In this document: positions 9,478-26,190 of the stretch, one piece after another
Layout: each line of letters starts with the position of its first letter
How positions within the stretch are numbered: position 1 is the stretch's first letter
Origin: Actinokineospora enzanensis DSM 44649
GTDB taxonomy: Bacteria > Actinomycetota > Actinomycetes > Mycobacteriales > Pseudonocardiaceae
Assembly (NCBI RefSeq): GCF_000374445.1
Contig: NZ_KB894404.1
Location: 124,001-188,000, forward strand
Reading direction: 5' to 3'
DNA length: 64,000 nt
Notes under the pieces: model-generated
Told to the model about the DNA's origin: nothing
Database searches by the model: none
What the model saw: only the letters and a program-made list of their open reading frames with translations
Position numbers and translations under genes: made by a program

Positions 9478-9845
9478 GAAGATCATCCCCAGCCCCTCGC
9501 GATAGACCCCGCCCGCCTGGGCGCCGGCCCGCCCGCGATTCTATCGCCGCAGGTCAAAGGCTTGGAAGAGGCCCAAGCGCGCCTGTGGATAGCTGACGTG
9601 GGATGTGGACAACCCTCGCGCCCCTGGCATTCCGCCGAGCTCACCCGCAACCACGAACAAGTGCGGAGAAGCCACCCCGCCAAGATCATCAACGGACCTC
9701 GCGATAAGCCCCTCCCGCCCGGGGGCTGGCCTGCGCGCGATCCTATCGCCCCAGGTCAGGGGCCTGGAAGGGGTGCCGCTGTGGCTGTGGATGGTTGGCC
9801 GAGCATGTGGACAACTCGATCGCCGCGTGCCCGGCCAAGATCATC
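9478..9845. repeat. Intergenic repeat array A with DnaA-box-like sites
   Basis: Most of the 540-bp gap 9369-9908 is repetitive. AAGATCATC recurs at 9479-9487, 9682-9690 and 9837-9845 (spacing 203 and 155 bp). Two longer copies (about 9478-9622 and 9681-9825) share CTCGCGATA, a CCCGCC/GGCC-rich centre, CTATCGCC, CAGGTCA, TGGAAG, then TGTGGAT and TGTGGACAAC. GCGATAG and CTATCGC pair within copy 1. TGTGGACAA at 9604-9612 and 9806-9814 is the reverse complement of the actinobacterial DnaA box TTGTCCACA; TGTGGATA and TGTGGATGG are near matches. Unlike arrays B and C, no G-run/C-run hairpin is present. The first ~110 bp of the gap hold nothing recognisable beyond the upstream region of the SDR gene. 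Confidence 0.7.
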
Positions 9846-11718: not shown

Positions 11719-12230
11719 CTGTGGATGGATCCCCGCCCTGTGGACAACTCTCGGGGACCCCCTAGATCAATTCTACTGGTGACGAGCCGGAGATGCGCGG
11801 GGTTGTCCACAGGGTGCTTGCCCGTGCAGGACGGCTCCCGGGGTCAAGGAATGGGTGTGGACCTGTGGATGATTCAAAGAGGATGTGGATAACCGCCGGG
11901 GACCCCCGAATTCCACTTTACGTGGTGCGCTCGGCAGGCGCGCGGAATTGTCCACAGGGGCTGGCATCCAAGGCGGCCGGATGGTCACACCGTCAACCGG
12001 AGTCCGCGCCCTGTGGATGCCTCGACCACGTGTGGACAACCTCTCAGGGACCCCCGGCTTCCATCTTATCGGGGTTGGCTCAGGGGATGTGCGGAGTCGT
12101 CCACACGGGGCGCGTCAAGGGGGTGGGGCGGTCCTGTGGATGATTCGCGGGGATGTGGATAACCGCCCAGGGAACCCCCCGAGTTCTATTCTACCGGCTC
12201 TGAGCTGCGGAGATGAATAACTGTCCACAG
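11719..12230 (-). repeat. Intergenic repeat array B: four units with DnaA-like boxes, -10-like hexamer and G/C hairpin
   Basis: The 541-bp gap between convergent genes (11693-12233) is filled by four units starting at 11719, 11863, 12011 and 12134 (spacing 144, 148, 123). Each holds CTGTGGATG, then TGTGGACAA or TGTGGATAA (11739, 11884, 12031, 12154), then a G-run/C-run hairpin (11753-11762, 11898-11907, 12047-12055, 12170-12180). The complement of a TANNNT hexamer follows (11770-11775, 11915-11920, 12063-12068, 12188-12193), then a box in the opposite sense (TTGTCCACA at 11803 and 11948, TCGTCCACA at 12097, CTGTCCACA at 12221). Read on the minus strand the core is TANNNT, exactly 7 nt, hairpin, 5-7 nt, TTRTCCACA in all four units. 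Confidence 0.85.
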
Positions 12231-12233
12231 CAC

Positions 12234-13442
12234 CTACGACGTAGCCGCCAGTACCGCACGAGCGGCCCGTCGCCCCGACACCAGGGCTCCCTGGATCGAC
12301 GGGGTATCCCGATGGTCCCCACAGACATAGATTCCGGAACCGAGATCGACCGCCGCCCGAAGCCCAGTCGTCACCGGCACCGCGTCCGCGATCCGGTACG
12401 AACGGACATGCCGCCACCGAGCAGTGTCCACGTGATACAGCTCCGCCAAGTGCGCGAGCACCGCATCGTCCCCAGGATGCTCGACCCCCAACGAAGTAGA
12501 CGACACCAACACCGCCCCAGGCGCATACTCCGGCGCGGCGTTCGTCAATACCACACTGTTCACCAACGGCCCCCGCCGCTCCGCGTCCACCACCAGTGCA
12601 CCCTCGGCAATCGGCGGGAAGTCGGCCAGGTGGTAGTGCGTCACACACCCCCGAGTCCGCACCACCGGCACCCGATCCCCCAACAACCCGTGCGCCGCAG
12701 GTCCGCCCACCGCCACGATTACCGAGCGGGCGGTGACGGTCCCGAAGTCCCCGGTGACGCGACCAGGTTGGATCTCACGGATGGGGTAGCTGTACTTCAC
12801 CGGCAGTCCCACCGCCAACTGGTCCGGGATCGCCCGCATGCCTCCCGCGGGTACGCCGATGGGGCCGCGAGCCAGGCTCCGGATGACGAACTCGGCGAAG
12901 CGGCCGGGCACCGTCAGGTCCCAGTCCAGGAACACGCCCGCGAGGAACGGGCGGACGAAGCGTTCGAGGATGGGGCCGGTGATGCCGTAGTCCGCGAGGC
13001 GGGCGCGGAGTGGCCGGTCGTCGCGGGTGCGCAGGGTCGACGCGGGGGCCGCGGCGAGGGCGGTGGCGTAGGCGCCGAGGAGGAACTTGCGGCCCAGGGG
13101 GCCGATGGGGGCGGACATGGTCTCGGCGAGGCGGGTGGGCAGGCGGCGGGGGTCGGCGACGAGGTGGGGGCCTTGGGAGTCGCTCACGATCACGGCGGGG
13201 AGGAAGGTGCGGAGGCGGAGGGTGTCCAGGTCGAGCAGGCCTGCTGCGGGGTAGGCGGCGTTGAAGACCTGGAAGCCGCGGTCGAGCAGGAGGCCGTCGA
13301 CGCGGTCGGTGCGGACGCGGCCGCCGGGGGCCTCGTCGGCCTCTAGGACCAGCACCTCGCGGCCCGCCTCGGTCAGCAGGCGGGCCGCGGCGAGGCCCGC
13401 CAGGCCTGCGCCCACGATCACGGTGTCGGTGTCGATCGCCAC
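12234..13442 (-). CDS. FAD-dependent amine oxidase/phytoene desaturase-like oxidoreductase
   Basis: This 402-residue protein starts MAIDTDTVIVGAGLAGLAAA, a dinucleotide-binding GxGxxG motif, followed by the acidic ribose-binding end of strand 2 (LVLEADEAPGGRVRT), the typical NAD(P)/FAD-binding_8 plus amine-oxidase arrangement. GFQVFNAAYPA and the C-terminal GIYVCGDHRDTPSIQGALVSG (FAD-contacting) fit the NAD(P)/FAD-dependent oxidoreductase family related to protoporphyrinogen oxidase and phytoene desaturase. No signal peptide or membrane segment is evident. The substrate cannot be told. The next gene upstream on the same strand, an acetyltransferase, ends 43 bp before this start. Confidence 0.85.
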   Translation of the reverse strand: MAIDTDTVIVGAGLAGLAAARLLTEAGREVLVLEADEAPGGRVRTDRVDGLLLDRGFQVFNAAYPAAGLLDLDTLRLRTFLPAVIVSDSQGPHLVADPRRLPTRLAETMSAPIGPLGRKFLLGAYATALAAAPASTLRTRDDRPLRARLADYGITGPILERFVRPFLAGVFLDWDLTVPGRFAEFVIRSLARGPIGVPAGGMRAIPDQLAVGLPVKYSYPIREIQPGRVTGDFGTVTARSVIVAVGGPAAHGLLGDRVPVVRTRGCVTHYHLADFPPIAEGALVVDAERRGPLVNSVVLTNAAPEYAPGAVLVSSTSLGVEHPGDDAVLAHLAELYHVDTARWRHVRSYRIADAVPVTTGLRAAVDLGSGIYVCGDHRDTPSIQGALVSGRRAARAVLAATS

Positions 13443-13485
13443 GGCGCCACCGTAGCCGTCCTGGACGGCGGGCGCATCGAGCGTC

Positions 13486-14304
13486 CTAAGTGGACAGCGA
13501 GGCCAGCTCGGCCGGGTCGAGCGGGAGTCCGAATCGGGCGGTCAGCAGGTCGGGCAGGTCCTGGTCGGACACCGTGGTGATCTCCTCGGTGCCGTCGCCG
13601 CGGCGGCGGGTCAGGACCCGGTCGTTGAGGTTGAGGCGTTCCTCCGCGCCCACGTGCCCGACGAACACCCGGCCCACGAACGGCGAGCGCCGATGCGTCG
13701 AGATGAAGTAGTTCGCGACCACGATGTCCACCAGGTGGTGCGCCTCCTCGGCGAACCGGTACAACGGGAACCACTCGTCGCCCCGGCGCAGGGACAGCAG
13801 CCACGGCAGCGCGGCGGACGGCTCGTGCGCCAGCCGGTACACCCAGCCGTCCTGTTCGGAGACCACGCCCGCGGTGAGCGGCACCGGCTCCAGCAGGCCG
13901 TCGTTGCCGAAGCCCACATCGGTCAGGAACGTCTCGTCACCCGCGCCGACCAGCAGCGTCATGTGCGTGCGCGGGATCGGCCGCGGCGCGTTCAGCGCGG
14001 GCCGCCCCAGCACCCGGGTCACCCGGAAGCCGAGACGGTCCAGGGCGGCGCCCATCAGCAGGTTGTGCTCGTAGCAGTAGCCGCCGCGGCCCCGCGTGAC
14101 GAGCTTGTCCTGGATCGCGGGCAGGTCCACGTCGATGCCGCGGCCGAGCACGACGTCCAGGTTCTCGAACGGGATGGCGAAGGTGTGCGCGCGGGACAGG
14201 GCGCGCAGTGTGTCGGCGGTCGGCGGCAGCGGTCCGCGCACGCCGATCCGCGTCAGGTAGGCGTCCAGGTCCAGCCGCTCGACCTGCCACTCGGTGTCGT
14301 CCAT
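13486..14304 (-). CDS. nat: Arylamine N-acetyltransferase
   Basis: This 272-residue enzyme transfers acetyl from acetyl-CoA to arylamines or hydrazines. The Cys-His-Asp triad is clear: C77 in GGYCYEHN, H114 in RTHMTLLV and D129 in LTDVGFG. IPFENLDVVLGR near residue 44 is the conserved N-terminal helix motif, and the length matches the family norm of about 270-280. The ATG at 14304 has GGTGGAG close upstream; a GTG at 14313 is an alternative. In mycobacteria NAT can act in lipid or cholesterol metabolism, but nothing nearby indicates such a role here. Confidence 0.9.
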   Translation of the reverse strand: MDDTEWQVERLDLDAYLTRIGVRGPLPPTADTLRALSRAHTFAIPFENLDVVLGRGIDVDLPAIQDKLVTRGRGGYCYEHNLLMGAALDRLGFRVTRVLGRPALNAPRPIPRTHMTLLVGAGDETFLTDVGFGNDGLLEPVPLTAGVVSEQDGWVYRLAHEPSAALPWLLSLRRGDEWFPLYRFAEEAHHLVDIVVANYFISTHRRSPFVGRVFVGHVGAEERLNLNDRVLTRRRGDGTEEITTVSDQDLPDLLTARFGLPLDPAELASLST

Positions 14305-14347
14305 GGGCTCCACCGCCCGAGGATGTCACGGGCGGCGCCCGCGATGA

Positions 14348-15394
14348 TCACGTCGGGTCGACGTCCGGCAGGGTGAGTCGGATCCGGCAGCCGCGCGCCG
14401 AGTCGACCACCGCGATCGAGCCGCCGTGCAGCTCGGTCACCCACCGAGCGATCGACAGCCCCAGGCCGGTCCCGCCGCCGCGGGCGCGTTCGCCCCGGGT
14501 GAACCGGCGGAACACCAGGTCGCGCTCGGCCGCCGCGATGCCCGGTCCCTCGTCGCGCACCTCCAGCAGGGTCGCCCCCGTGCCGCGGTCGGCCACCAGC
14601 CGCACCTCGCCGTCGGCAGGCCCGTGCCGCACGGCGTTGTCCAGCAGGTTGACCAGCACCTGGTGCAGCCGCTCCCGGTCGGCGTGCACCTTCTCCGCCC
14701 GGTCGGACACGGTCGTGGCGAACCGCACCCCGGAGCGCCCGGCCGCCACCGCGTTCACCTTCGCCTCGGCCACCACCTCGGTGAACAGCTGCGCCACCGC
14801 CACCGGCTCGCGGACCAGCGCCTGCGCGCCCGCGTCGATACGGGACAGGTCCAACAGCTCGGTCACCAGCCTGCCCAGCCGCTCGGTCTGGGCCAGCGCG
14901 GTGCGCATGGTCGCCGGGTCGGCGTCGCTGACCCCGTCCACCACGTTCTCCAGCACCGCCTGCAGCGCCGCGATCGGGGTGCGCAGCTCGTGCGAGACGT
15001 TCGCGATCAGCTCCCGGCGGTGCCGGTCGGCGGCGTCCAGGTCGGCGCTCATCTGGTTGAACGCCCGGCCCAGCTCGCCCACCTCGTCCCGGGCGCTGAC
15101 CCGGATCCGGCGCGAGTAGTCGCCGCGGGCCATGGACCGGGCGGCGGCGGTCATCTCGCGCAGCGGTCGGGTCATGCCGTGCGCGAGCACCTGGGAGACC
15201 AGCAGCGCGCCGACGATGGCGGTGATCGAGGTGGTCGGCGGGATCCAGCCGATCATGACCCAGAAGTAGGACAGCCCGGCCGCGCCGGAGGCCACCAGCA
15301 GGATGCCGATCTTGAGCTTGATCGACCGGACCGGGTCCAGCGGCCGCGGCAGCAGCTCCAGCAGGGCGACGGCGCGCTCGCGGGGCGTGCTCAC
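14348..15394 (-). CDS. Two-component sensor histidine kinase (OmpR-partner class)
   Basis: This 348-residue kinase has two membrane helices (about 27-45 and 50-70) with almost no extracytoplasmic loop. A HAMP linker follows (TRPLREMTAAARSMARGDYS). The phosphoacceptor lies in NVSHELRTPI, and the ATPase domain shows NLLDNAVRHG, DEGPGI and GGTGLGLSI. The short loop suggests that it senses within the membrane or through a partner. The GTG at 15394 overlaps the regulator stop by 4 nt (GTGA), so kinase and regulator are translationally coupled. It resembles the CseC/MprB/BaeS-like class. Confidence 0.9.
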   Translation of the reverse strand: MSTPRERAVALLELLPRPLDPVRSIKLKIGILLVASGAAGLSYFWVMIGWIPPTTSITAIVGALLVSQVLAHGMTRPLREMTAAARSMARGDYSRRIRVSARDEVGELGRAFNQMSADLDAADRHRRELIANVSHELRTPIAALQAVLENVVDGVSDADPATMRTALAQTERLGRLVTELLDLSRIDAGAQALVREPVAVAQLFTEVVAEAKVNAVAAGRSGVRFATTVSDRAEKVHADRERLHQVLVNLLDNAVRHGPADGEVRLVADRGTGATLLEVRDEGPGIAAAERDLVFRRFTRGERARGGGTGLGLSIARWVTELHGGSIAVVDSARGCRIRLTLPDVDPT

Positions 15395-16077
15395 TCGGGT
15401 ACCTCCAGGGCGTAGCCGACACCGTGGACGGTGCGGATCAGGTCCGCGCCCAGCTTGCGGCGCAGCGCCTTGACGTGACTGTCCACGGTACGGGTGCCCG
15501 CCGCCTCGCCCCAGCCCCAGATCTCGGCCAGCAGCCGCTCCCTGGGCTGCACCGCGCGCGGCCGGGCGGCCAGGTAGGCGAGCAGGTCGAACTCGATCGG
15601 GGTCAGGTGCGCCTCGGTGCCCGCCCGGCGCACCCGCCGCTGCACCGGGTCCACCTCCAGGTCGCCCACCGCGATGGTCGACCCGTCCGGCTCCGGCTGC
15701 GCGGCCCGCTCGACCCGGCGCAGCAGCGCGTGCACCCTGGCCACCAGCTCGCGCGGGGAGAACGGCTTGGTCATGTAGTCGTCGGCGCCCACGCCAAGCC
15801 CGACCAGCAGGTCGGTCTCGTCGTCGCGGGCGGTGAGCATGAGCACCGGCACCGGCCGGGCCGCCTGCACCCGGCGGCACACCTCCAGGCCGTCGTAGCC
15901 GGGCAGCATGACGTCGAGCACGATCAGGTCCGGCCTGCCGCGCTCGGCCGCGGCCACCCCGCCCGGCCCGTCGTGGGCCAGGTCGACCTCGAAGCCCTCG
16001 GCGCGCAGCCGGGCGGCCACCGACTCGGCGATCGTCTGCTCGTCCTCGACCACCAGCACACGGCGCTTGTTCCCCAT
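15391..16077 (-). CDS. OmpR/PhoB-family response regulator
   Basis: This 228-residue regulator has a receiver domain (VVEDE near residue 9, phosphoacceptor aspartate in LIVLDVMLPG, switch lysine in MTKPFSPREL) and a C-terminal winged helix. The output domain is recognised by LTPIEFDLLAYL, LLAEIWGWG, TVDSHVKALRRKL and HGVGYAL. It is co-translated with the downstream kinase. The ATG at 16077 is chosen because it starts directly before RRVLVVEDE; an upstream extension would be basic and unconserved. It is divergent from hrpA with about 130 bp between the starts. Confidence 0.9.
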   Translation of the reverse strand: MGNKRRVLVVEDEQTIAESVAARLRAEGFEVDLAHDGPGGVAAAERGRPDLIVLDVMLPGYDGLEVCRRVQAARPVPVLMLTARDDETDLLVGLGVGADDYMTKPFSPRELVARVHALLRRVERAAQPEPDGSTIAVGDLEVDPVQRRVRRAGTEAHLTPIEFDLLAYLAARPRAVQPRERLLAEIWGWGEAAGTRTVDSHVKALRRKLGADLIRTVHGVGYALEVPE

Positions 16078-16207
16078 GAATGTGCACTGTAAGGAGCGGC
16101 GGGAGCGAACCTGTGGGCGGTTGTGGCGCGGAATGTGAAGTTTGTGTGGAGCCCGCCGCGAAACCGAGGTGAAGCGGCCCCGGGCCATTGCCTACGCTGG
16201 GGGGCAA

Positions 16208-19200
16208 ATGAGCAGCACTGACACCGCCGCCACCGCGGCCGACCTGCGTGCCGCCCTGCCCGAGCTGACGCTGCGGGACGAGCGGCGGCTGGGGCGCAGG
16301 CTCGACGGACTGCGCAAGACCCGGGACCCGGCCAGGCGGGCGGCCGCCACCGCGCGGATCGCCGAGGAGGTCGCGGCCGCCCGGCGGCGGGTGGAGCTGC
16401 GCCGGTCGTCCGTGCCCAGGATCAAGTACCCGGACGAGCTGCCGGTCAGCCAACGCCGCGACGACATCCTGGCCGCCATCCGCGACCACCAGGTGGTGAT
16501 CGTCGCGGGCGAGACCGGCTCGGGCAAGACCACCCAGCTGCCCAAGATCTGCCTGGAGCTGGGCCGGGGCGTGCGCGGCCTGATCGGGCACACCCAGCCG
16601 CGCCGGATCGCCGCGCGCACGGTGGCCGAGCGGGTCGCCGAGGAGGTCGGCACCCCACTGGGGGAGACAGTCGGCTGGAAGGTCCGGTTCACCGACCAGG
16701 TGGGTGACCGCACGCTGGTGAAGCTGATGACCGACGGCATCCTGCTCGCCGAGATCCAGCACGACCGGCTGCTGTCGGCCTACGACACGATCATCATCGA
16801 CGAGGCGCACGAGCGCAGCCTCAACATCGACTTCCTGCTCGGCTACCTGGCCAGGCTGCTGCCGAGCAGGCCGGACCTGAAGATCGTGATCACCTCGGCC
16901 ACCATCGACCCGGAGCGGTTCGCCCGGCACTTCGGCGGCGCCCCGGTCGTGGAGGTCTCCGGGCGCACGTACCCGGTGGAGGTGCGCTACCGGCCGCTGG
17001 TCGACCAGGAGGACCCGGACGCCGACCCGGACCGCGACCAGACCCAGGGCATCCTGGACGCGGTCGACGAGCTGTGCGCGGAGGGGCCGGGCGACATCCT
17101 GGTGTTCCTCTCCGGCGAGCGCGAGATCCGCGACACCGCCGAGGCGCTGGCGGGGCGCAACCTGCGCAACACCGAGATCCTGCCGCTCTACGCGCGACTG
17201 TCCAGCGGCGAGCAGCACCGCGTGTTCCAACAGCACACCGGCAGACGCGTGGTGCTGGCCACCAACGTCGCCGAGACCTCGTTGACCGTGCCGGGCATCA
17301 AGTACGTCGTCGACCCCGGCACCGCGCGCATCTCCCGCTACAGCAACCGCCTGAAGGTCCAGCGGCTGCCCATCGAGCCGGTGTCGCAGGCCTCGGCCAA
17401 CCAGCGCAAGGGCCGCTGCGGTCGTACCTCCGACGGCATCTGCGTCCGCCTCTACAGCGAGGACGACTTCCTCGCCCGCCCGGAGTTCACCGACCCGGAG
17501 ATCCTGCGCACCAACCTGGCCTCGGTCATCCTGCAGATGAGCGCGGCCGACCTCGGCGAGATGGCCGACTTCCCGTTCATCGACCCGCCGGACAAGCGGC
17601 ACATCGCCGACGGTGTGCAGCTGCTGCGCGAGCTGGGCGCGCTGGACCCGGCCGAGAAGGAACCCGCCAAGCAGCTGACCCCGCTGGGCCGCAAGCTGGC
17701 CCAGCTGCCGGTCGACCCGCGACTGGCCCGGATGGTCATCGAGGCGGAGAACAACGGCTGCGTCGCCGAGGTCATGGTCATCGCCGCCGCGCTGTCCATC
17801 CAGGACCCGCGCGAACGGCCGCAGGAGAAACAGCAGGCGGCGGCGGAGAAGCACGCCCGGTTCGCCGACCCGGACTCGGACTTCCTCAGCTTCCTGAACC
17901 TCTGGGAGTACGTGCGGGAACAGCAGAAGGAGCTGTCCGGCAACCGGTTCCGCAGGCAGTGCAAGGCCGAGTTCCTCAACTACCTGCGCATCCGCGAGTG
18001 GCAGGACATCCACGGTCAGCTGCGCCAGATGGCCAAGCAGCTGGGCGTCACGCCCAACGACGTGCGGCCCGACCCGCGCAACATCCACATCGCACTGCTG
18101 TCGGGCCTGTTGTCGCACCTCGGTTTCCGCGACCCGGCGGGCAAGGAGTACTTCGGCGCCCGCAACGCCAAGTTCGCCGTGTTCCCCGGCTCGGCCCTGT
18201 TCAAGAAGCCGCCGCGCTGGGTGATGGCCGCCGAGCTGGTGGAGACCACCCGGCTGTGGGCGCGGGTGGCCGCGCGGATCGAGCCGGAGTGGGTGGAGCC
18301 GCTGGCCGCGCACCTGGTCAAGCGCGTCTACAGCGAGCCGCACTGGGAGGCGCGCCAGGGCTCGGTGGTGGCGACCGAGCGGGTGACCCTCTACGGGCTG
18401 CCGATCGTCGTCGACCGCAAGGTCCACTATGGACGCATCGACCCGGGGATGTCCCGCGACCTGTTCATCCGCAACGCGTTGGTGGAAGGCGACTGGCAGA
18501 CCCGGCACCACTTCTTCCGCGACAACCGGGCGCTGCTGCGCGAGGTCGAGGACCTGGAGCACCGGGCGCGGCGCCGCGACATCCTGGTCGACGACGAGAC
18601 CCTGTTCCGCTTCTACGACGAGCGTGTCCCGGCCGAGGTGGTGTCCGGGCGGCACTTCGACACCTGGTGGAAGAAGGTCCGGCACGAGCAGCCGGAGCTG
18701 CTGAACTTCTCGAAGTCCATGCTGCTCAACGAGAACGCCGACGCCATCCGCGCGGAGGACTTCCCGGACACGTTGCAGCAGCACGGCCTGTCGCTGCCGC
18801 TGACCTACCGGTTCGAGCCGGGCCGCGCCGACGACGGGGTGACCGCGCGAGTACCGATCGCGGTGCTCAACCAGCTGGCGGGCGACGGGTTCTCGGTGCA
18901 GGTGCCGGGACAGCGCGAGGAGATCGTGACCGCGTTGATCCGTTCGCTGCCGAAACCGTTGCGCCGCAACTTCGTCCCGGTCCCGGACTTCGCCAAGGCC
19001 GTGGTCCGCAGGCTGGGCGAGACCGAGGAGTCGCTGCCCGAGGCGGTCGGCCGCGAGCTGCGTGCCCTGACCGGCGTCACCATCCCGCGCGACGCGTGGC
19101 AGCTGGACGCGGTGCCGGACCACCTCAAGACCACGTTCCAGATCGTCGACGGCGAGAAGACCCTGGCCACCGGCAAGGACCTGCTGGCACTGAAAGACCA

Positions 19201-20116
19201 GCTCAAGTCCCGGCTGCGCGCCTCGCTCGCGGAGGCGACGGTCGACCTGGAACGCACCGGCCTGACCGGCTGGACCGTCGGCACGCTCCCGAAGGTCGCC
19301 CGCACCGAGCAGAACGGACTGGTCGTCACGGCCTACCCGGCACTGGTCGACGAGGGCACCACGGTCGCCGTCCGGATGCTCGACACCGAGACCGACCAAC
19401 GCGCCGCGATGTGGCTGGGCACCAGGAAACTCGTGCTGCTCAACGTGCCCTCACCGGCCAAACACGTCGTGCGCACCCTGTCCAACCAGGCCAAACTCAC
19501 TCTCTCGCACAACCCGCACGGCGGCGTCCCCGCCCTGCTGGCCGACTGCGTCGACGCCGCCGCCGACCACCTGATCACCCAGGCGGGCGGCCCGGCCTGG
19601 GACGAGCCGGGGTTCACCCGGCTGAGCGCGTACGTCCGCAAGCACCTCAACGAGACCACGGTGGAGGTGCTCGACCGGGTCCGCAAGGTGGTGATGGCCT
19701 GGCACGACGTGCAGAACCGCGTCTCCCGCACCAAGGGGCCGATCTTCACCGAACCGCTCGCCGACATCCGCGAGCAGCTGACCCACCTGATCTTCCCCGG
19801 CTTCGCCACCGCGACCGGCGTGGCCCGACTGGGCGACCTGGAACGCTATCTCCGCGCCATCGAGCGACGACTGGACAAACTGCCCGAACGTCCCGATCGC
19901 GACACCACGTGGATGCACATCGTCCAGGACCTGGAGGACGGCTACCACGAGGCGCTGGAACAGCTGCGGCCCAGCGCGCGGGAGAGCGACGCCGCGCGGG
20001 CGGTGCGGTGGATGATCGAGGAACTGCGGGTCAGCTACTTCGCCCAGACACTCGGCACCCCGGGCTCGATCTCCGACAAACGCGTGTTGAAGGCGATCCA
20101 GGCCCTGACGCCCTGA
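16208..20116 (+). CDS. hrpA: ATP-dependent RNA helicase HrpA
   Basis: This 1302-residue protein is a DEAH-box helicase of the HrpA family, which acts on mRNA or stalled ribosomes. Motif I is GETGSGKTT (about 101-109), motif II is DEAH (about 198), motif III is SATID, and motif VI lies in NQRKGRCGRTS. The helicase-associated HA2 and OB-fold regions follow, then the long C-terminal DUF3418 region typical of bacterial HrpA; total length matches the family. The ATG at 16208 follows TACGCT and a G-run. An N-terminal helical region rich in Arg (RRLGRRLDGL) precedes the core. It is transcribed alone and ends at a hairpin. Confidence 0.95.
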   Translation: MSSTDTAATAADLRAALPELTLRDERRLGRRLDGLRKTRDPARRAAATARIAEEVAAARRRVELRRSSVPRIKYPDELPVSQRRDDILAAIRDHQVVIVAGETGSGKTTQLPKICLELGRGVRGLIGHTQPRRIAARTVAERVAEEVGTPLGETVGWKVRFTDQVGDRTLVKLMTDGILLAEIQHDRLLSAYDTIIIDEAHERSLNIDFLLGYLARLLPSRPDLKIVITSATIDPERFARHFGGAPVVEVSGRTYPVEVRYRPLVDQEDPDADPDRDQTQGILDAVDELCAEGPGDILVFLSGEREIRDTAEALAGRNLRNTEILPLYARLSSGEQHRVFQQHTGRRVVLATNVAETSLTVPGIKYVVDPGTARISRYSNRLKVQRLPIEPVSQASANQRKGRCGRTSDGICVRLYSEDDFLARPEFTDPEILRTNLASVILQMSAADLGEMADFPFIDPPDKRHIADGVQLLRELGALDPAEKEPAKQLTPLGRKLAQLPVDPRLARMVIEAENNGCVAEVMVIAAALSIQDPRERPQEKQQAAAEKHARFADPDSDFLSFLNLWEYVREQQKELSGNRFRRQCKAEFLNYLRIREWQDIHGQLRQMAKQLGVTPNDVRPDPRNIHIALLSGLLSHLGFRDPAGKEYFGARNAKFAVFPGSALFKKPPRWVMAAELVETTRLWARVAARIEPEWVEPLAAHLVKRVYSEPHWEARQGSVVATERVTLYGLPIVVDRKVHYGRIDPGMSRDLFIRNALVEGDWQTRHHFFRDNRALLREVEDLEHRARRRDILVDDETLFRFYDERVPAEVVSGRHFDTWWKKVRHEQPELLNFSKSMLLNENADAIRAEDFPDTLQQHGLSLPLTYRFEPGRADDGVTARVPIAVLNQLAGDGFSVQVPGQREEIVTALIRSLPKPLRRNFVPVPDFAKAVVRRLGETEESLPEAVGRELRALTGVTIPRDAWQLDAVPDHLKTTFQIVDGEKTLATGKDLLALKDQLKSRLRASLAEATVDLERTGLTGWTVGTLPKVARTEQNGLVVTAYPALVDEGTTVAVRMLDTETDQRAAMWLGTRKLVLLNVPSPAKHVVRTLSNQAKLTLSHNPHGGVPALLADCVDAAADHLITQAGGPAWDEPGFTRLSAYVRKHLNETTVEVLDRVRKVVMAWHDVQNRVSRTKGPIFTEPLADIREQLTHLIFPGFATATGVARLGDLERYLRAIERRLDKLPERPDRDTTWMHIVQDLEDGYHEALEQLRPSARESDAARAVRWMIEELRVSYFAQTLGTPGSISDKRVLKAIQALTP

Positions 20117-20130
20117 CCGTTGTCGGACCA

Positions 20131-20155
20131 GCCTGCTCGGCGGAAGGCAGCAGGC
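20131..20155 (+). terminator. Hairpin after hrpA
   Basis: GCCTGCT (20131-20137) and AGCAGGC (20149-20155) pair around an 11-nt loop 15 bp past the hrpA stop. There is no U tract, so terminator function is probable rather than certain. It may also serve the convergent minus-strand gene. Confidence 0.5.
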
Positions 20156-20210
20156 GCTCGCCGAAAGGAAGGCCGCGCCCCACGGAGGCTGCGTGGGACG
20201 GAGGACGTGG

Positions 20211-21131
20211 TCAGCGGCGGACGTGCAGGCGCACCACGGTCCCGGCGGTCGGCGTGGACCGGATCCGCACCAGATCGCACAGCTGGTTCGCCAGCCACAC
20301 CCCGCGCCCGCCCTGCACCGACGGCACCGGCGCGATCCGCCCCACCAGCGGATCCAGGATGTGCCCGGAGTCGCTGACCTCGCACACCAGCGCGTCGCCA
20401 TCGGTCCACAGCCGCAGCGTCCCGCGCTCACCGCCGTGGCAGATGCTGTTCGTGACCATCTCGTTGGTGGCCAGCGTCAGGTCCAGCGCCCGACCACGCG
20501 GCAACCCGAACTGCCGCGCTCGCACCCCGACCAGGTCACGCAGCTCCGGCAGGTCGTCCAGGCAGAAGTGGACCATGTCCGACACCGTCTCCGGCGCGGG
20601 CAGCGGATCGGTGAACCGGGCGTGCGCGTAGGCGTGGTCGAAGGTCTCGCTGACCTGGCGGCCGCCGTCGATCACCACCGGGTGCGTGCAGACGGTGGTG
20701 ATCGCCACCTGCTCGGGCAGGCCGGAATGGTCGACGGTGCAGCGCAGCCGCAGCGCGCGCTCCTCCTCGAACGCCAGGTTGACCAGCGCCTCGTGCAGTA
20801 CGACCTCGGCCAGCTCGTCCCCGCCGCGGCCCGCCCAGGCCGACTCGCCGACCCCGCGCACCGGCCGCTCGCCCGCCTCGCGCAGCTGTCCACGGATGGC
20901 CGGGATGAGCCGCGCCGGGTTGCGCCCGAGCTCGGCGGCGTCCAGGAACCGCACGTCCTCGGCGGCGGGCCCGAGCGCCTCGCGCAGCAGCTTGGCCCCC
21001 GGCGGCGGCAGCACGGCGAACACCGACTCGCCCGCACGCAGGCCGTCGTGCAGGAACCCGGCGGTGCCGTCGACGAAGCCAGCCGCGTCGCGGTAGACCA
21101 GTGCCTCGTGGGCGAACCCCGGTGCGCTCAT
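20211..21131 (-). CDS. MEDS-domain / anti-sigma-type ATPase regulator
   Basis: This 306-residue protein joins an N-terminal MEDS-like sensory domain (opening GFAHEALVYRDAAGFVDGTA, about 1-150) to a C-terminal HATPase domain of the RsbW/anti-sigma kinase type (about 190-306). The latter has TLATNEMVTNSICHGG as N box, VSDSGH and GGRGVWLANQL. Such proteins are usually annotated as sensor histidine kinases but lack a phosphoacceptor histidine domain. They more likely act as serine kinases or anti-sigma factors in partner switching. The signalling operon at 2850-6068 encodes a matching PP2C-type phosphatase, though a link between the two is inference. Confidence 0.8.
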   Translation of the reverse strand: MSAPGFAHEALVYRDAAGFVDGTAGFLHDGLRAGESVFAVLPPPGAKLLREALGPAAEDVRFLDAAELGRNPARLIPAIRGQLREAGERPVRGVGESAWAGRGGDELAEVVLHEALVNLAFEEERALRLRCTVDHSGLPEQVAITTVCTHPVVIDGGRQVSETFDHAYAHARFTDPLPAPETVSDMVHFCLDDLPELRDLVGVRARQFGLPRGRALDLTLATNEMVTNSICHGGERGTLRLWTDGDALVCEVSDSGHILDPLVGRIAPVPSVQGGRGVWLANQLCDLVRIRSTPTAGTVVRLHVRR

Positions 21132-21330
21132 GCGGTCACGTCCTCGAACCCGGATCGGGGCGGTTTCCTCGCTTTCCAGGACGCGGCGGGCTCTGTCGAG
21201 TTCCCGCCGCCCGCCGATGAGGCCAGTCACATACTGGCCGGATCCTACCCGGGCGAGGGGTCCGGGGCGACCGCTCCACCAGGGCGGACATCCACAATTC
21301 GACAGGGTTGTCCGTCAACGGCACACGGAC

Positions 21331-21975
21331 CTATTTGTCCTCAGTGGACAGTTCGGCGCCGTCGACGACCAGCGTGGTCCGCTCGTGGTAGAAGCAGGCC
21401 AGCCCGGCGACCTTCTGGCTTTCCGGCAGCGGCGCGCGGTAGCACCACACCAGGTCACGGTGCACGACGCCGTCCGACACGACGTCCCAGTAGGTTGCCG
21501 TTCCCTTGTAGGGGCACATCGTGGTGGTGGTCGACGGCCGCAACAGGTCCATCCGTATGTCGTGCAGCGGCAGGTAGAACCGTGGTGGAAGTCCGGTCTC
21601 GAACAGAATCCTCGGCTGTCGAGACTCGGCCAGCCGCACCCCGCCCAACTCGACCACCACATGCCGTGACGAGCCGAGAATGTCGACCCGCGTATACGGA
21701 TCGCGCGCGTGCACGTAGACCGGTTCGTCCTCCTCGAACCACTCGTCCACCGCGCCCCATTCGACCCGGACCAGCCCCGCGACCTCGGGCCGGTCCGGCG
21801 TGGTCACGGCGGCGCGCGGGAGAAGATCGACGCGGACGTCGGCGGCCGCGAAGTAGTAGGTGGGATAGGCCCGCTCCCAGACCAGCCACGGCCCGGCCGA
21901 GTCCACCACCAGCGTCCGACCGAGATAGCCCCGCACCCGTTTGGCCGACCGCTCGACCCGCGATGATCCGCTCAC
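21331..21975 (-). CDS. DUF427-domain protein
   Basis: This 214-residue cytosolic protein contains two DUF427-like segments: WERAYPTYYFAAADVRVDLL near the N-terminus and LPPRFYLPLHDIRMDLLRPS followed by MCPYKGTATYWDV in the second half. The second is the canonical signature. The family is widespread in actinobacteria and of unknown biochemical function. The GTG at 21975 is chosen because TAGCGT (a -10 hexamer) lies 7 nt upstream with no Shine-Dalgarno, indicating a leaderless mRNA. It is divergent from the voltage-sensor-like gene. Confidence 0.85.
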   Translation of the reverse strand: MSGSSRVERSAKRVRGYLGRTLVVDSAGPWLVWERAYPTYYFAAADVRVDLLPRAAVTTPDRPEVAGLVRVEWGAVDEWFEEDEPVYVHARDPYTRVDILGSSRHVVVELGGVRLAESRQPRILFETGLPPRFYLPLHDIRMDLLRPSTTTTMCPYKGTATYWDVVSDGVVHRDLVWCYRAPLPESQKVAGLACFYHERTTLVVDGAELSTEDK

Positions 21976-21982
21976 CCGACCG

Positions 21983-21988
21983 ACGCTA
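21983..21988 (-). promoter_or_regulatory. -10 element of the DUF427 gene
   Basis: TAGCGT on the minus strand ends 7 nt before the GTG start codon, with no ribosome binding site between. The geometry predicts transcription starting at or next to the start codon. Confidence 0.55.
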
Positions 21989-22036
21989 CCGGCCCGGCGA
22001 GTGGCCACGGGCCAGACGCCGTGGAAGGTTTCACGC

Positions 22037-22813
22037 ATGGTCATCTCGGTTGAGCCCGCACCGCACCGCCACCGGGTGGGCGTGGACGACTGGTTCATGC
22101 TCCTGCTCGCGGTGCTCGCCGTGGGCCTGCTGACCTACCGCGCGTTCTGGCACCCGGCGCCCGACGTGGCCCGGACGATCGTGTGGGTCGATCGCGGCCT
22201 GTGCGCGGTGTTCGCCGTGGAGTTCGTCTGGCGGTGGGCCCTGTCCGGGTTCGCTCGACGGTTCCTGTGGGTGAACTGGTACGACATCGTCGGCCTGGTC
22301 CCGGTGGCCCATCTGGGATTCCGCGCGTTCCGGCTGTTGCGGGCGGTGCGGGTCGGGGTGCAGCTGAGCCTGGGGCGGGTGATCGACCGGTCGGTGGGGG
22401 AGGAGCTGGCGTACCGGGCCATGGTCCGGTTCGGCGGGGTGCTGATCGACGTGATCAAGAAGCCGCTGACCGTCGCGGTGTTGGAGGAAGTGGTGTCGGT
22501 TCTGCGCACCGGGCACTACGCGCGGAATCTGGCGGCGGCCTTGGACGAGAACCGGGCGGAGATCCGGGAGATGGTGTTGGAGAAGATCCGGGCCGATCCG
22601 CGGGCCGGGGTGTTCCGGCGGTTGCCGTTCCATGACGAGATCGTGGGGGCGGTCACGGATGCCACTTTGCGGGTGGTGCTGGAGATGTTGGCGGATGCCC
22701 GGACCGATGAGCTGATCGCCGATCTGTTGCGGGAGAATATCGAGCAGATTCGGGAAGCGGTGTATGCGGACGCGCATCGGAACCTGCCCGAGCAGAAGCC
22801 CGCGGACCGGTGA
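22037..22813 (+). CDS. Voltage-sensor-like membrane protein without a pore domain
   Basis: This 258-residue protein has three or four membrane helices in its first 120 residues: WFMLLLAVLAVGLLTYRAFW, a helix around VDRGLCAVFAVEFVWRW, and one or two in WYDIVGLVPVAHLGF. An arginine-bearing RAFRLLRAVRVG segment follows, reminiscent of S4 of voltage-gated cation channels. No S5-pore-S6 or selectivity filter follows. Instead there is a 130-residue charged cytosolic helical region (ENRAEIREMVLEKI and LLRENIEQIREAV). It fits the ion-transporter superfamily loosely. The ATG at 22037 has GGAAGG upstream. Function is unknown; it may be a stand-alone sensor or proton path. Confidence 0.65.
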   Translation: MVISVEPAPHRHRVGVDDWFMLLLAVLAVGLLTYRAFWHPAPDVARTIVWVDRGLCAVFAVEFVWRWALSGFARRFLWVNWYDIVGLVPVAHLGFRAFRLLRAVRVGVQLSLGRVIDRSVGEELAYRAMVRFGGVLIDVIKKPLTVAVLEEVVSVLRTGHYARNLAAALDENRAEIREMVLEKIRADPRAGVFRRLPFHDEIVGAVTDATLRVVLEMLADARTDELIADLLRENIEQIREAVYADAHRNLPEQKPADR

Positions 22814-22846
22814 CCCCGAGCGATGGACTGACGGGTCAGGGGGAAC

Positions 22847-23077
22847 TCACTGCACTCCACTCCCGGGATGCGGCACCTGAAACCCGCCTCCGCCCCGCTC
22901 CACAGCCACAACCCCCTCCACCTTTCTCAACGACCCCAACCGATCCTCGTCAACCCTCCCCACCACAGTGAGAATCTCCGGCAAAGCCCGCTCCACCCGC
23001 ATCCCGGCCTCCGCCAAACCGGCGACCACGGACACGAACGAAGCGGACTCCGCCACCGACACCAGAACCGATATCAC
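22847..23077 (-). CDS. Small I9-inhibitor-like partner of the adjacent subtilase
   Basis: This 76-residue protein starts with GTG overlapping the protease stop by 4 nt (GTGA), so the two are translationally coupled. The sequence (VISVLVSVAESASFVSVVAG, then helix and strand segments ending LRKVEGVVAVE) has the beta-alpha-beta-beta-alpha-beta rhythm and the VEGVxxVE ending of peptidase inhibitor I9/subtilisin propeptides. Similar small proteins next to actinobacterial S8 peptidases are often mislabelled as aldolases. It may inhibit or chaperone the protease in the cytoplasm, which is inference. No export signal is present. Confidence 0.7.
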   Translation of the reverse strand: MISVLVSVAESASFVSVVAGLAEAGMRVERALPEILTVVGRVDEDRLGSLRKVEGVVAVERGGGGFQVPHPGSGVQ

Positions 23078-24273
23078 GGAGCGAGCACCAACCCCGCCCC
23101 CACATCCGTGGAAACCAACGACAACCTCCGGGCACTCTGCGCCAACCGAGCCCACAACTCCCACCCACGTGCCCCGGTGGCCTGTGAGATCAACGCGGCG
23201 ATCCCGGCGACATGCGGCGTTGCCATGCTCGTCCCACTGATCTTGTTGTACAACTTCGGCCGAGGCCAGGACGAATAGACATCGACCCCGGGCGCCACCA
23301 CGTCGACCGCTCCGATCTTGTCCACCGTCCCGCACGAGAACCACCCCACCGCGGTCGCCACATCAATCGCTCCCACGGCCAGGATCGACGGGCAGTTGGC
23401 CGGATGCCCGACCGGCGCGATCACCCCGTTCTGCCGCTTCGAGTCATTCCCCGCGGCAGCGACGATCAATGTCCCCTGGGCAAGCGCGCGTGCAGCAACC
23501 GACTCGTAGACAGTCGAGTAAGGCGTCCCCGCCCGCACAGTCGCGCCGAGCGACATCGACACGACGTGGCAGTTGTTCGACACCGCCCAGGCGATCCCGG
23601 CCAGGATTCCGCCATCGTTGCCCGATCCCTCGTTGCTCAGCACCTTTCCCGCGAAGATCTCCGCCTGGTACGCGAGCCCGTACCCCGGCCGCGTCGCCGG
23701 TTCACGCGGGCCCGTGGCGGTGCCGATGCAGTGGGTGCCGTGCCCGTGTCCGTCCGCCGCGTCCTCGCCCTGGACGAAGGAGCTGGTGGTCACCGTGCGG
23801 CCCGCGAAGTCCGGGTGCTCGGCGTCGAAGCCGGTGTCCAGGACGGCGACGCGGATACCCGCGCCGGTCGCCTTGCTCAGCGGGGCGCCGACGGCCTGCA
23901 GGCCCCAGGTGTACGTGGTCTCGTCGGCCGGGGGAGCGGCGGCGTCGTCCGCCTCGATCGTGGCGCTGATCGCGTAGACGCGGCGTTCCTGCTCCAGGGC
24001 GGCGATCGGGCCCGGCTCGTCGACCGCGCGGGCCAGGGCCTCGGCCTGGTCGGCGTCGGCGTCCACGACCGCGACGCCGAGGCGGTCGAACACCAGGCCG
24101 TCGGCGCCGTGCGCGCCGGGGTAGGCGCTGCCCGCCGCCTCCGCGGTGCTGGTCGCGCGGATGCCCGCGACGCGATGCAGTTCACGGGTGCCCGCGGCGA
24201 CCGAGTCGTCCGCCAGCAGCACCAGGTAGCGGCCGGTCGTGTCGTCCTGGGGGGAGTTCTCGGGAGTGCTCAC
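23074..24273 (-). CDS. S8 family (subtilisin-like) serine peptidase without signal peptide
   Basis: This 399-residue subtilase has its complete catalytic triad: D146 in VAVLDTGFD, H178 in GHGHGTHCIG and S349 in GTSMATPHVAG. The oxyanion asparagine lies in AAAGNDS. The first 110 residues resemble an I9 prodomain (GRYLVLLADD, then ERRVYAISATIEADD). There is no signal peptide or membrane segment, so the enzyme is probably cytosolic or exported by an unusual route. The GTG at 24273 has GGTGG upstream. It overlaps by 4 nt the small I9-like gene that follows. Confidence 0.88.
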   Translation of the reverse strand: MSTPENSPQDDTTGRYLVLLADDSVAAGTRELHRVAGIRATSTAEAAGSAYPGAHGADGLVFDRLGVAVVDADADQAEALARAVDEPGPIAALEQERRVYAISATIEADDAAAPPADETTYTWGLQAVGAPLSKATGAGIRVAVLDTGFDAEHPDFAGRTVTTSSFVQGEDAADGHGHGTHCIGTATGPREPATRPGYGLAYQAEIFAGKVLSNEGSGNDGGILAGIAWAVSNNCHVVSMSLGATVRAGTPYSTVYESVAARALAQGTLIVAAAGNDSKRQNGVIAPVGHPANCPSILAVGAIDVATAVGWFSCGTVDKIGAVDVVAPGVDVYSSWPRPKLYNKISGTSMATPHVAGIAALISQATGARGWELWARLAQSARRLSLVSTDVGAGLVLAP

Positions 24274-24443
24274 TGGTCCACCCTTCGTAGCCTGTAGCCC
24301 ACCTGTAAGTGTGATCGCAACCGTGGATCGGGTGTAACGCGCATCACACTTTTGTCCCAACTGGGCCGGACGGGTGACAACCGGCGGATCTGTTCCACGC
24401 GGTCCACCCCGTGGCACGACCGGGGCTGACCGGTGCGGACGTT

Positions 24444-24449
24444 TACTGT
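24444..24449 (+). promoter_or_regulatory. -10 element of mshC
   Basis: TACTGT ends 6 nt before the mshC ATG with no Shine-Dalgarno, the geometry of a leaderless promoter. CGGTG lies 8 nt further upstream, only a weak resemblance to the PafBC motif. Confidence 0.55.
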
Positions 24450-24455
24450 CGAACC

Positions 24456-25694
24456 ATGCAGACCTGGCAATCCCACCCGGTGCCGCGGGTGGAGGGCACC
24501 CCGCGGCCGCTGCGGCTGTTCGACACCGCGGCCGGGGAGATCCGGCCGACGGCCCCCGGCCCCACGGCGACCATGTACGTCTGCGGGATCACCCCGTACG
24601 ACGCGACCCACCTCGGGCACGCGGCCACCTACCTGGCCTTCGACCTGGTCCACCGGCAGTGGCTGGACAACGGGCACGAGGTGCACTACGTGCAGAACGT
24701 CACCGACATCGACGACCCGCTGCTGGAGCGGGCCGCGCGCGACCGGGACGACTGGGTGGTGCTCGGCATGCGCGAGACCGCGCTGTTCCGGGAGGACATG
24801 ACCGCGCTGCGGGTGCTGCCGCCGCGCGACTACGTCGGTGCGGTCGAGTCCATCCCGGAGATCGTGGAGGCGGTCGCCAAGCTGCTCGCCGACGGCGCCG
24901 CCTACCGGGTCGACGACACCGAGTTCCCGGACGTCTATTTCGACCACACCGCCACCGGCCGGTTCGGCGCCGAGTCCAACTACGACGGGCCCACCATGAA
25001 CCGGTTCTTCGCCGAACGCGGCGGCGACCCGGACCGCGCGGGCAAGCGGCACCCGCTGGACGCACTGCTCTGGCGCGCGGCCCGCCCCGGCGAGCCGAGC
25101 TGGGAGAGTGAGCTGGGCCCGGGGCGGCCCGGCTGGCACATCGAGTGCAGCGTGATCGCGCTCAACCGGCTGGGCATGACCCTGGACGTCCAGGGCGGCG
25201 GCAGCGACCTGATCTTCCCGCACCACGAGTTCAGCGCCGCGCACGCCGAGGCCCTCACCCGGCAGCACCCGTTCGCCCGGCACTACACGCACTCGGCGAT
25301 GATCGCCCTGGACGGCGAGAAGATGTCCAAGTCGCGCGGCAACCTGGTGTTCGTCTCCCGCCTCCGCGCCGACCAGGTCGACCCGATGGCGATCCGGCTC
25401 GGCCTGCTGTCCGGCCACTACCGCACCGACCGCTCCTGGACCACCGACATCCTCCGCGACGCCGAGTCCCGGGTACACCGGTGGCGCACCGCCGTCGACG
25501 CGTCGACCGGCGCCGACGCTCGCCCGTTGGTCGCGGCGCTGCGCGACCACTTGGCCGACGACCTGGACACCCCTGCGGCCCTGGCCGCCGTCGACGCTTG
25601 GGCTGCCCGCACTGCCACTGGTGGGGAGTCCGATCCGGACGCTCCTGCGTTGGCGCGTGCCGCTATCGATGCACTGTTGGGGGTCGCGCTCTGA
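24456..25694 (+). CDS. mshC: Cysteine:glucosaminyl-inositol ligase MshC (mycothiol synthesis)
   Basis: This 412-residue enzyme belongs to the cysteinyl-tRNA synthetase-derived MshC family. It joins cysteine to the amino group of GlcN-Ins with ATP, the penultimate step of mycothiol synthesis. The zinc-binding start is [16 protein letters not shown] (C43, and HLGH at 52-55 in place of HIGH). The second signature is KMSKSRGN at about 289-296. [11 protein letters not shown] and [10 protein letters not shown] complete the active site. The short C-terminus lacks the tRNA-binding part of CysS, which separates it from that enzyme. The order mshC-PAC2 nearby matches mycobacteria. A strong hairpin follows. 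Confidence 0.95.
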
Positions 25695-25698
25695 GCGA

Positions 25699-25735
25699 GG
25701 TTCGGTGACGGTGCCCTGGGTGCCGTCACCGAACC
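25699..25735 (+). terminator. Hairpin after mshC
   Basis: GGTTCGGTGACGG (25699-25711) pairs perfectly with CCGTCACCGAACC (25723-25735) around an 11-nt loop, 4 bp past the mshC stop. It separates mshC from repeat array C. Confidence 0.8.
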
Positions 25736-25768
25736 GGTCGCCGGTGCCTGGCCGATCCGGCTTGCCGG

Positions 25769-26190
25769 TTGTCCACAGGCAAGATCATCGGGTGTGGTGG
25801 GATGGTGGTTTGCCCAGGTAGAATTGACTTCGGGGGTCCCCCCGGGGGTTGTCCACAAGGGGTCGGAGGCATCCACAGCCCGGCTGCCCTGCTTGACGGA
25901 GGCGGGGCCATGTGGGCGCGGGGTTATCCACAGGCAAGATCGAGAGCGCTCGCGAGCCCGCTATTCCCGCTGGTAGCGTTGAAATCCGGGGATCCCCTGA
26001 CAAGTTGTCCACATGCCGTGCGAACAGTCCACAGGGCGGCGGAGGGCTTGACGGGGCGCGGTCCAGGGGGTCGGCGCGGCTGTCCACAGGCATGATCGTT
26101 TGTCGGCCGGAATGTCGGTGGGGTCGGGTAATGTGGATTTCGGGGATCCCCCGGCGAGTTGTCCACAAGGCAGGCGAGCCATCCACATCG
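25769..26190 (+). repeat. Intergenic repeat array C: three units with DnaA-like boxes, -10-like hexamer and G/C hairpin
   Basis: Three units with a 155-156 bp period fill the gap between the mshC and MFS gene ends. Unit starts are TTGTCCACA 25769, TTATCCACA 25924 and CTGTCCACA 26080, each followed by GGCAAGATC or GGCATGATC. Then come a TANNNT hexamer (TAGAAT 25819, TAGCGT 25974, TAATGT 26129), 7, 8 and 7 nt, and a hairpin (25832-25842, 25988-25997, 26142-26151). After 6-7 nt lies a perfect TTGTCCACA (25849, 26005, 26159), then a third looser box (GCATCCACA 25869, CAGTCCACA 26025, CCATCCACA 26179). The core is the same as in array B but in the opposite orientation. No gene is supportable in 25736-26220. 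Confidence 0.87.

Follow-up and report, generated by a model that had tools for sequence, protein, structure and literature searches.

Dispersed DnaA-box pairs with a promoter-like core in Actinokineospora enzanensis and other Pseudonocardiaceae: a possible chromosomal reservoir for DnaA

The 64-kb window analysed here (a stretch of 64,000 nucleotides of the Actinokineospora enzanensis genome) carries arrays of a short composite repeat in which a -10-like hexamer (TANNNT), a tract made of a G run and a C run (G/C tract) and DnaA-box-like 9-mers (TTRTCCACA) follow each other in a constant order. These repeats are tentatively interpreted as dispersed DnaA-binding elements, acting as a reservoir or as titration sites and carrying a promoter-like core, which would be lineage-specific members of an intergenic element of the Pseudonocardiaceae. 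Judging from sequence comparison, this reading is possible, although somewhat short of probable. The element is described by its anatomy, its copy number, its recurrent geometry, its excess in convergent intergenic regions, its recurrence in the family and the differences in arrays between relatives; from these we infer DnaA binding, titration, transcription from TANNNT and any effect on initiation.

A preliminary description of this DNA reported seven composite units in two arrays, B and C. All seven lie where it had placed them, with their parts in the order claimed, according to a regular-expression search of the window. The expression (TANNNT, 7 or 8 nt, 3 to 6 G, 0 to 2 nt, 3 to 6 C, 4 to 8 nt, TTRTCCACA) matches seven times in the window and not once in any of 200 dinucleotide shuffles. 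Re-reading of the sequence gives the same hexamers (TAGAAT, TAAAGT, TAAGAT, TAGAAT, TAGAAT, TAGCGT and TAATGT) and the same distances, i.e., 7 nt from hexamer to tract in six units and 8 nt in one and, taken from the unit sequences, 5-7 nt from tract to box. The 9-mer TTRTCCACA is found 14 times in the window for 0.13 expected, and the repeats are spaced by 123-156 nt. A sequence-only model, R1, built from 54 copies including the seven window units, recovers all of these units with E-values from 7.9e-19 to 3.8e-14.

What had been called a DnaA-box-like 9-mer is identical to the high-affinity DnaA box that PMC4285127 gives for Streptomyces coelicolor and Mycobacterium tuberculosis, and to boxes located beside dnaA in A. 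enzanensis itself: TTGTCCACA and TTATCCACA both occur in the intergenic region adjoining this gene (dnaN being on the far side, by position). The possibility that the element is a copy of oriC was considered and rejected. R2, the model of the module described below, finds only weak partial matches at the dnaA loci of A. enzanensis and three relatives (E 0.003-0.6), and none is listed in a fourth.

In the 8.12-Mb assembly of A. enzanensis (87 contigs), the pattern GGGGNTCCCCN{5,16}TTRTCCACA has 60 exact matches and the reversed pattern none. The preliminary description had proposed a genome-wide search and had held that a count no higher than in shuffled sequence would refute it; with 60 against 0, this is therefore not what is observed. 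Among the 150 matches scored genome-wide with R1, 114 reach E<=1e-8 (counted by rows). The 9-mer alone occurs 520 times, and its reversed word 35 times. No other of the 120 family genomes searched reaches this number of 9-mers, but most of them also show an excess over the reversed word, of variable size. A pattern of paired boxes has 58 matches versus 0 for its control, and the clustering of boxes outside oriC goes beyond chance. Exact boxes are mostly intergenic, with 25/30 in 464 kb of A. enzanensis, 17/21 in 400 kb of G119 and 64/65 in 400 kb of G202, whereas DNA outside called genes makes up 10-17% of these three stretches. Genes were called by a simple codon-usage script, trained on A. 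enzanensis and applied to other species too; G202 is taken as Actinokineospora diospyrosa, while G119, G201, G204 and G100 are the genomes of other relatives.

The anatomy of the unit was drawn from 82 units of this genome, picked by their G/C tract and box from the exact-pattern loci. Their profile reads G-TA-NNN-T-G-G-A, CGGGGG(A/-)TCCCC, GAG-TTRTCCACA, 10-11 nt, RTCCACAGG, about 15 nt, (Y)TTGAC. Although these units were chosen without regard to the hexamer, TANNNT is present in 67 of them, for ~0.45 expected. The 15 others (CAGAAT, AAGAAT and others) include 12 that keep two of the three conserved positions, and at least two that look like artefacts from the reading of a neighbouring unit on the opposite strand. 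Positions 1, 2 and 6 are conserved and positions 3-5 variable, as would be expected of the -10 hexamer predicted beforehand. A second, weaker box follows the first one with a pitch of 19-20 nt. Upstream of TA, the 67 TANNNT units have 36 direct boxes that end at a distance of 38-42 nt and 23 inverted ones that end at 27-28 nt; six units have neither of them, and a further box is present in most. Boxes, hexamer and G/C tract are kept while the rest of the copies has diverged, which agrees with the constrained core initially proposed.

The hairpin placed at this core in the preliminary description stands only in part. The tract with its G run and C run is real but an RNA hairpin is unsupported, both by RNAalifold on the units (3 pairs, -2.75 kcal/mol, zero two-sided changes) and by five single folds, whose z-scores versus shuffles (-0.73 to 1.28) indicate no gain. 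The C run is missing from the main form in A. diospyrosa. A longer stem, joining the flanks of the tract with the DnaA box, was also rejected, positions hp-2 and box-2 being unlinked in one cross-tabulation (T-G 28, T-A 25, C-G 13, C-A 11, rest 5). A known structured RNA is ruled out by Rfam scans, which give no match in the window nor at the modules in 14 loci of relatives.

Looking at the other genomes of the genus led to a different delimitation of the element. The box pair TTRTCCACA-N10-13-TCCACA is found in 16/16 genus genomes, in 6 to 295 copies (control 0-1); with a gap fixed at 13 nt, it is found in 2/295 other genomes of a phylum sample. The core GTARNNTGNANNYCGGGG is present in 11/16 genus genomes (control 0-1), with 42 copies in A. 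enzanensis, 91 in G202, 34 in G204, 31 in G119, 21 in G201 and 1-16 in the remaining six. Furthermore, the start of TARNNT is 37-40 nt beyond the pair for 28/30 pairs in G202, 13/22 at other genus loci, 15/81 in A. enzanensis and 0/1 in the G119 stretch.

When named genomes were scanned for the pair, the gap and TARNNTG, at least 120 stretches were retrieved, 80 of which were listed and examined. Among the matches listed, the module is found in Actinokineospora, Streptoalloteichus, Actinophytocola, Goodfellowiella, Umezawaea, Kutzneria, Allokutzneria and one Pseudonocardia, and as single matches in two Micromonospora, one Plantactinospora and one Rhodococcus. The alignment of 32 modules picked among these listed matches gives the family form, GAG-TTGTCCACA-N10-TTGTCCACAGG-N35-38-(A/G)TAGRCTGG, continued after TAGRCTGG by N3-4-GGGG-NCG-CCCCCC-GGG-NN-GGGTGGGGG. 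The corresponding model, R2, for which at most 19 candidates were scored per genome and E-values are rough, has matches at E<=1e-3 in 163/200 family genomes and 45/46 genera, the weak ones of which may reflect boxes alone, and at E<=1e-8 in 82/200 family genomes and 26 of 46 genera (counted by rows). In the same way, the profile of the 32 modules (E<=0.01) has 13 matches in the stretch of A. enzanensis, 9 in that of G119 and 48 in that of G202, and 0 in each of these stretches reversed.

Because the succession of pair, 37-40 nt and TANNNT recurs across species, the hexamer belongs with the upstream box or pair. The core-then-box geometry that the preliminary description had taken as the basic unit is not retained: its unit takes the core from one module and the box pair from the module that follows, and the core-box junction that it stressed is a form special to the A. 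enzanensis genome. The comparison of sequences makes it most likely that the core goes with the box that precedes it and that the pair after the tract opens the next module. Since R2 matches array C and a third array of the window, A, the composite of A. enzanensis most likely derives from the family module. In related Pseudonocardiaceae, the module is widespread but the exact tract-box form is not: GGGGNTCCCC with a gap of 4-9 nt to the box has a single match, in one of 199 other family genomes, and 0 in nine other genus genomes. Restriction to one species, another candidate considered, nearly applies to this exact form (60 copies in A. enzanensis) but not to the whole module.

In several other genera (e.g., G076, G099 and G023), the pitch between exact boxes is 17-18 nt and not 19-20. 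In Micromonospora (L203, L218) and Plantactinospora (L264), a pair and TANNNT are located upstream of genes whose products are similar to each other; because of this resemblance, the pair may be an ordinary promoter element there.

The location of the copies relative to genes is far from random. None of the 82 A. enzanensis units (0/82) reaches an overlap of 35 nt with a called gene. The 45 intergenic regions that hold them comprise 23 convergent, 18 tandem and 3 divergent ones and 1 edge, while the background of 135 intergenic regions of at least 100 bp comprises 16 convergent, 75 tandem and 44 divergent ones (Fisher p=1.3e-7 for the convergent excess and 6e-4 for divergent regions). The location between convergent genes, which the preliminary description had proposed to examine, is therefore found in 23/45 regions versus 16/135. 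In the 464-kb stretch of A. enzanensis, 13 pairs are distributed in 8 convergent, 4 tandem and 1 divergent settings. In G202, the regions that hold the 30 pairs are convergent in 14 cases and tandem in 6, none being divergent, for a background of 29/78/52 (p=3.9e-8). Among the matches listed in the scan of named genomes, modules are convergent in 47 cases, tandem in 12 and at an edge in 12 inside Actinokineospora, and convergent in 10, tandem in 8, divergent in 2, in a gene in 2 and at an edge in 6 outside this genus. As divergent (promoter) regions are avoided, a structural or titration role is favoured over the control of neighbouring genes. At the scale of the chromosome, 45/62 pair loci of G201 are in the oriC half (Kolmogorov-Smirnov p=0.0015, with a circular chromosome assumed and in one complete genome), and no strand bias with the replication fork is found in this genome (36/62, p=0.25).

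According to the reservoir or titration reading, the basic module would be a direct pair, TTRTCCACA-N10-NNRTCCACAGG, followed after 37-40 nt by a -10-like TANNNTG, a G run and a C run. In A. enzanensis, this module would have turned composite, its core abutting a further box pair. The pairs would be bound by DnaA, and many of them in neutral spots behind genes would make up a chromosomal DnaA reservoir that could buffer or time replication initiation. The promoter-like core could make local DnaA occupancy responsive to transcription, or allow it to influence transcription. Boxes that are paired, strongly conserved in otherwise diverged copies and placed away from divergent promoters suggest a reservoir, in which the role of the boxes would be DnaA binding itself.

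DnaA-box clusters outside oriC are already known. A Streptomyces DnaA-box cluster was reportedly found by Smulczyk-Krawczyszyn et al. in 2006 to regulate replication. Like this cluster and datA of E. coli, the elements described here consist of boxes of the actinobacterial DnaA consensus, clustered in non-coding DNA away from oriC; unlike them, they occur as many dispersed copies rather than one or few and share a recurrent geometry that includes TANNNT and a G/C tract. Chromosomal titration of DnaA is described for E. coli in PMC12371093. According to PMC11317965, E. coli DnaA prefers double boxes 2-3 bp apart. The pairs resemble these double boxes, being two close boxes in the same direction that are probably bound as a pair, but they are depleted at divergent promoters and their gap differs.

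Several points weigh against a reservoir. The gap in the pair is 10-11 nt versus the 2-3 bp given for E. coli DnaA in PMC11317965, and TANNNT and the G/C tract are conserved though needless for a pure titration site. The oriC of Kutzneria albida is reported, in PMC4210621, to lack the classic TT(G/A)TCCACA boxes. A Kutzneria species (L236) carries the module, among the matches listed, and the 9-mer may therefore not be the oriC site of DnaA in this genus. The number of pairs varies from 6 to 295 within the genus Actinokineospora, thus a large reservoir is not essential. The sole pair of the G119 stretch falls within a called gene, as do two of the 28 non-Actinokineospora modules among the matches listed. 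The bias towards the oriC half comes from one genome with gene content uncontrolled, and the 17 core loci of this genome (G201) do not share it. Lastly, the absence of arrays at matching junctions of relatives, described below, also fits selfish spread.

The conserved hexamer calls for another explanation to be weighed. In actinobacterial promoters, the -10 element is TANNNT, with free middle positions. The hexamer of the module has the same free middle positions; unlike these promoters, it often has no downstream gene and has a box pair at a recurrent upstream distance, and its transcription start is only predicted. DnaA on the pair could thus activate or repress a sigma-70-like promoter of a small or antisense RNA, whose transcription would begin at or near the G run and enter the facing gene at its 3' end. 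This is rather unlikely in our view, despite the frequency of TANNNT in units picked without it (67/82, as above) and the recurrence of the pair-to-TANNNT distance in several species. In addition, TTGAC is found 15 nt after the pair in 45/81 A. enzanensis pairs, and TANNNT at 39 nt would give an 18-nt spacer. However, TTGAC (13-19 nt) and TANNNT (37-40 nt) follow one and the same pair in only 6/81 cases in A. enzanensis, 1/30 in G202 and 0/22 among the other pairs, and a -35 is not evident in the alignment of 32 modules. Pairs are directed at the 3' end of a gene on the opposite strand in 28/30 cases in G202 and 8/13 in the 464 kb of A. enzanensis, but this antisense direction is forced because the location is convergent; in tandem settings, it is found in 13/20 cases (p=0.26). 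Furthermore, no Rfam family corresponds to such an RNA, and folds of the A. enzanensis form and of the family form are no better than those of shuffles. A broader version, which would make the element a class of its own, new and spread throughout the Pseudonocardiaceae, and in which box pairs at a fixed distance from 3'-end promoters would let free DnaA govern non-coding, mostly antisense starts genome-wide, while transcription would release DnaA and couple back to initiation, appears improbable.

The enrichment of copies at convergent 3' ends and their depletion at divergent promoters would also suit a transcription-end element, in which the G/C tract and box-bound DnaA would form a terminator plus a roadblock between converging genes. 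A stem of the C run and the G run is predicted for the family form (-8.9 kcal/mol), but the A. enzanensis form has a 3-bp stem only and a U run is not seen. The distance from pairs or modules to the next gene is highly variable (27 to 1368 nt) and, at the mshC junction of some relatives, other inverted repeats occur in the absence of the element (read by eye). Such a role is considered very improbable.

The arrays differ between relatives. Seven clusters of A. enzanensis, on the examined part of contig 2, were compared with G119 and G202. Array B faces a 19-bp junction in G119, and the array C2:98921-99281 faces junctions of 9 bp in G119 and 38 bp in G202. At the place of array C, G119 has a single box, which is part of a copy in another orientation, and G202 has no box. 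The remaining four clusters either could not be located in both genomes or correspond there to longer sequence in which boxes are scattered. Between the sister genomes G202 and G201 (89.5% identity over blocks >1 kb), 8 of the 19 G202 clusters examined occupy 360-1363 bp where the G201 junction has 2-60 bp; two of these eight are less well anchored, since the flank used for 386387 is 72.8% identical and the right flank of 286374 consists of repeat sequence. Three others are unplaceable, and the last eight have longer or box-bearing sequence in G201. The absence of arrays at some matching junctions of relatives therefore indicates a fast turnover.

These missing arrays, i.e., array B (absent from G119), the one starting at C2:98921 (absent from both G119 and G202) and the eight G202 clusters that face short junctions in G201, could also betray a non-autonomous mobile or recombining repeat, similar to miniature inverted-repeat transposable elements (MITEs) or repetitive extragenic palindromic (REP) sequences. 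It would be tolerated behind genes, and its boxes would be passengers or copying aids. The many copies in lineage-specific versions point in the same direction. However, neither target-site duplication nor constant ends were seen by eye at nine junctions, one query of each kind (array C against plasmids, a two-module stretch of Streptoalloteichus against phages) gave no match, and the A. enzanensis genome has 0 Y1 transposases, the only type searched for. Besides, the copies are diverged outside the boxes, hexamer and G/C tract, which points to constraint and not to recent copying. A mobile repeat is thus regarded as unlikely.

REP sequences, bacterial interspersed mosaic elements (BIMEs) and the repeats associated with REP-associated tyrosine transposases (RAYTs) are short, dispersed, intergenic and palindromic, and often located behind genes. 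The element is likewise short, dispersed, intergenic and often behind genes; it differs from REP and BIME sequences by its conserved DnaA boxes, an unsupported hairpin and a genome without a RAYT-type transposase. A REP/RAYT repeat proper is ruled out for A. enzanensis, which has no Y1_Tnp gene and no conserved hairpin in its copies. Y1_Tnp (RAYT) genes are found in 2/16 genus genomes, those with 7 and 13 pairs.

Within the window, array C is on the plus strand. Its unit 1 (25812..25878) consists of the TAGAAT core, the tract GGGGGTCCCCCC, TTGTCCACA and a second box (R1 E=7.9e-19). Unit 2 (25967..26034) has the TAGCGT core, the 8-nt gap, GGGGATCCCC, TTGTCCACA and a second box (R1 E=9.3e-16), and unit 3 (26125..26187) the TAATGT core, GGGGATCCCCC, TTGTCCACA and a second box (R1 E=7.8e-17). 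Each is preceded by an upstream box on the same strand. That of unit 1 (25769..25777), TTGTCCACA then GGCAAGATCA, lies ~41 nt 5' of TAGAAT, and the segment 25763-25847, which extends from the second box as far as the G/C tract, corresponds to R2 positions 18-100 (E=1.2e-6). That of unit 2 (25924..25932), TTATCCACA then GGCAAGATC, is included in a partial R2 match (25917-25976, E=0.0019). A variant box, CTGTCCACA then GGCATGATC, precedes unit 3 (26080..26088; partial R2 match 26072-26154, E=2.2e-5). Array C occupies a convergent junction, where a class I tRNA-synthetase-like gene (Pfam tRNA-synt_1e), which we take to be mshC by resemblance, faces a major facilitator superfamily (MFS) gene. The junction downstream of mshC in G100 (L104) is filled by another dense palindromic repeat, ATCATCCGGATGATG-like.

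The four units of array B are on the minus strand, and each has a G/C tract between its core and its first box, and a second box after the latter. Unit 1 (12134..12198) has the TAGAAT core and TTATCCACA (R1 E=2.9e-18), unit 2 (12011..12074) TAAGAT and TTGTCCACA (R1 E=3.8e-14), unit 3 (11863..11925) TAAAGT and TTATCCACA (R1 E=4.8e-16) and unit 4 (11719..11781) TAGAAT and TTGTCCACA (R1 E=1.5e-15). Inverted upstream boxes are located on the plus strand at 11803..11811 for unit 4 (TTGTCCACA) and at 11948..11956 for unit 3. Array B also occupies a convergent junction, where a GAF-HisKA-HATPase kinase gene faces a gene of the amine-oxidase type.

Array A (9506-9817, minus strand) was outside the finding of the preliminary description. 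Of its two modules, one (9709..9817, minus strand) has a pair at 9786-9814, TAGGAT starting 40 nt after it and a G/C tract (R2 2-109, E=1.8e-7). The other (9506..9615, minus strand) has a pair at 9584-9612, TAGAAT also starting 40 nt after it and a G/C tract (R2 2-110, E=1.5e-8). The array is flanked by a DUF6319 gene and a gene of the short-chain dehydrogenase type, both on the minus strand, and its modules are directed at the 5' end of the latter; since they are directed at the start of this gene, they could be its promoter. The TTG start listed for the DUF6319 open reading frame falls inside an exact TTGTCCACA (10326-10334, minus strand).

Other repeats and motifs were seen near modules in relatives. 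In A. diospyrosa, three regions (G202:C2:281344-282548, 286301-287508 and 367313-368468; L268, L262) have, after their box-pair units, a recurring segment of ~200 nt whose inverted arms are long, then minisatellite-like GGACCTGACGG... repeats, for an intergenic length of ~1.2 kb, all read by eye. A cobalamin riboswitch is located near a module-bearing locus of Streptoalloteichus tenebrarius (L195 7453-7575, plus strand).

The preliminary description knew of no element with such a layout and, in the open-access literature, to which the search was confined, no description was found of a dispersed, family-wide association of a box pair, a -10-like hexamer and a G/C tract. The related species of a single genus, whose genomes carry between 6 and 295 pairs of DnaA boxes, offer a natural series that is suited to direct tests of titration and of its link to transcription, and bear on whether bacteria other than the usual models count their initiator protein by chromosomal titration. 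If the reservoir reading is true, many intergenic repeats of actinomycetes, a large class, would also gain a function.

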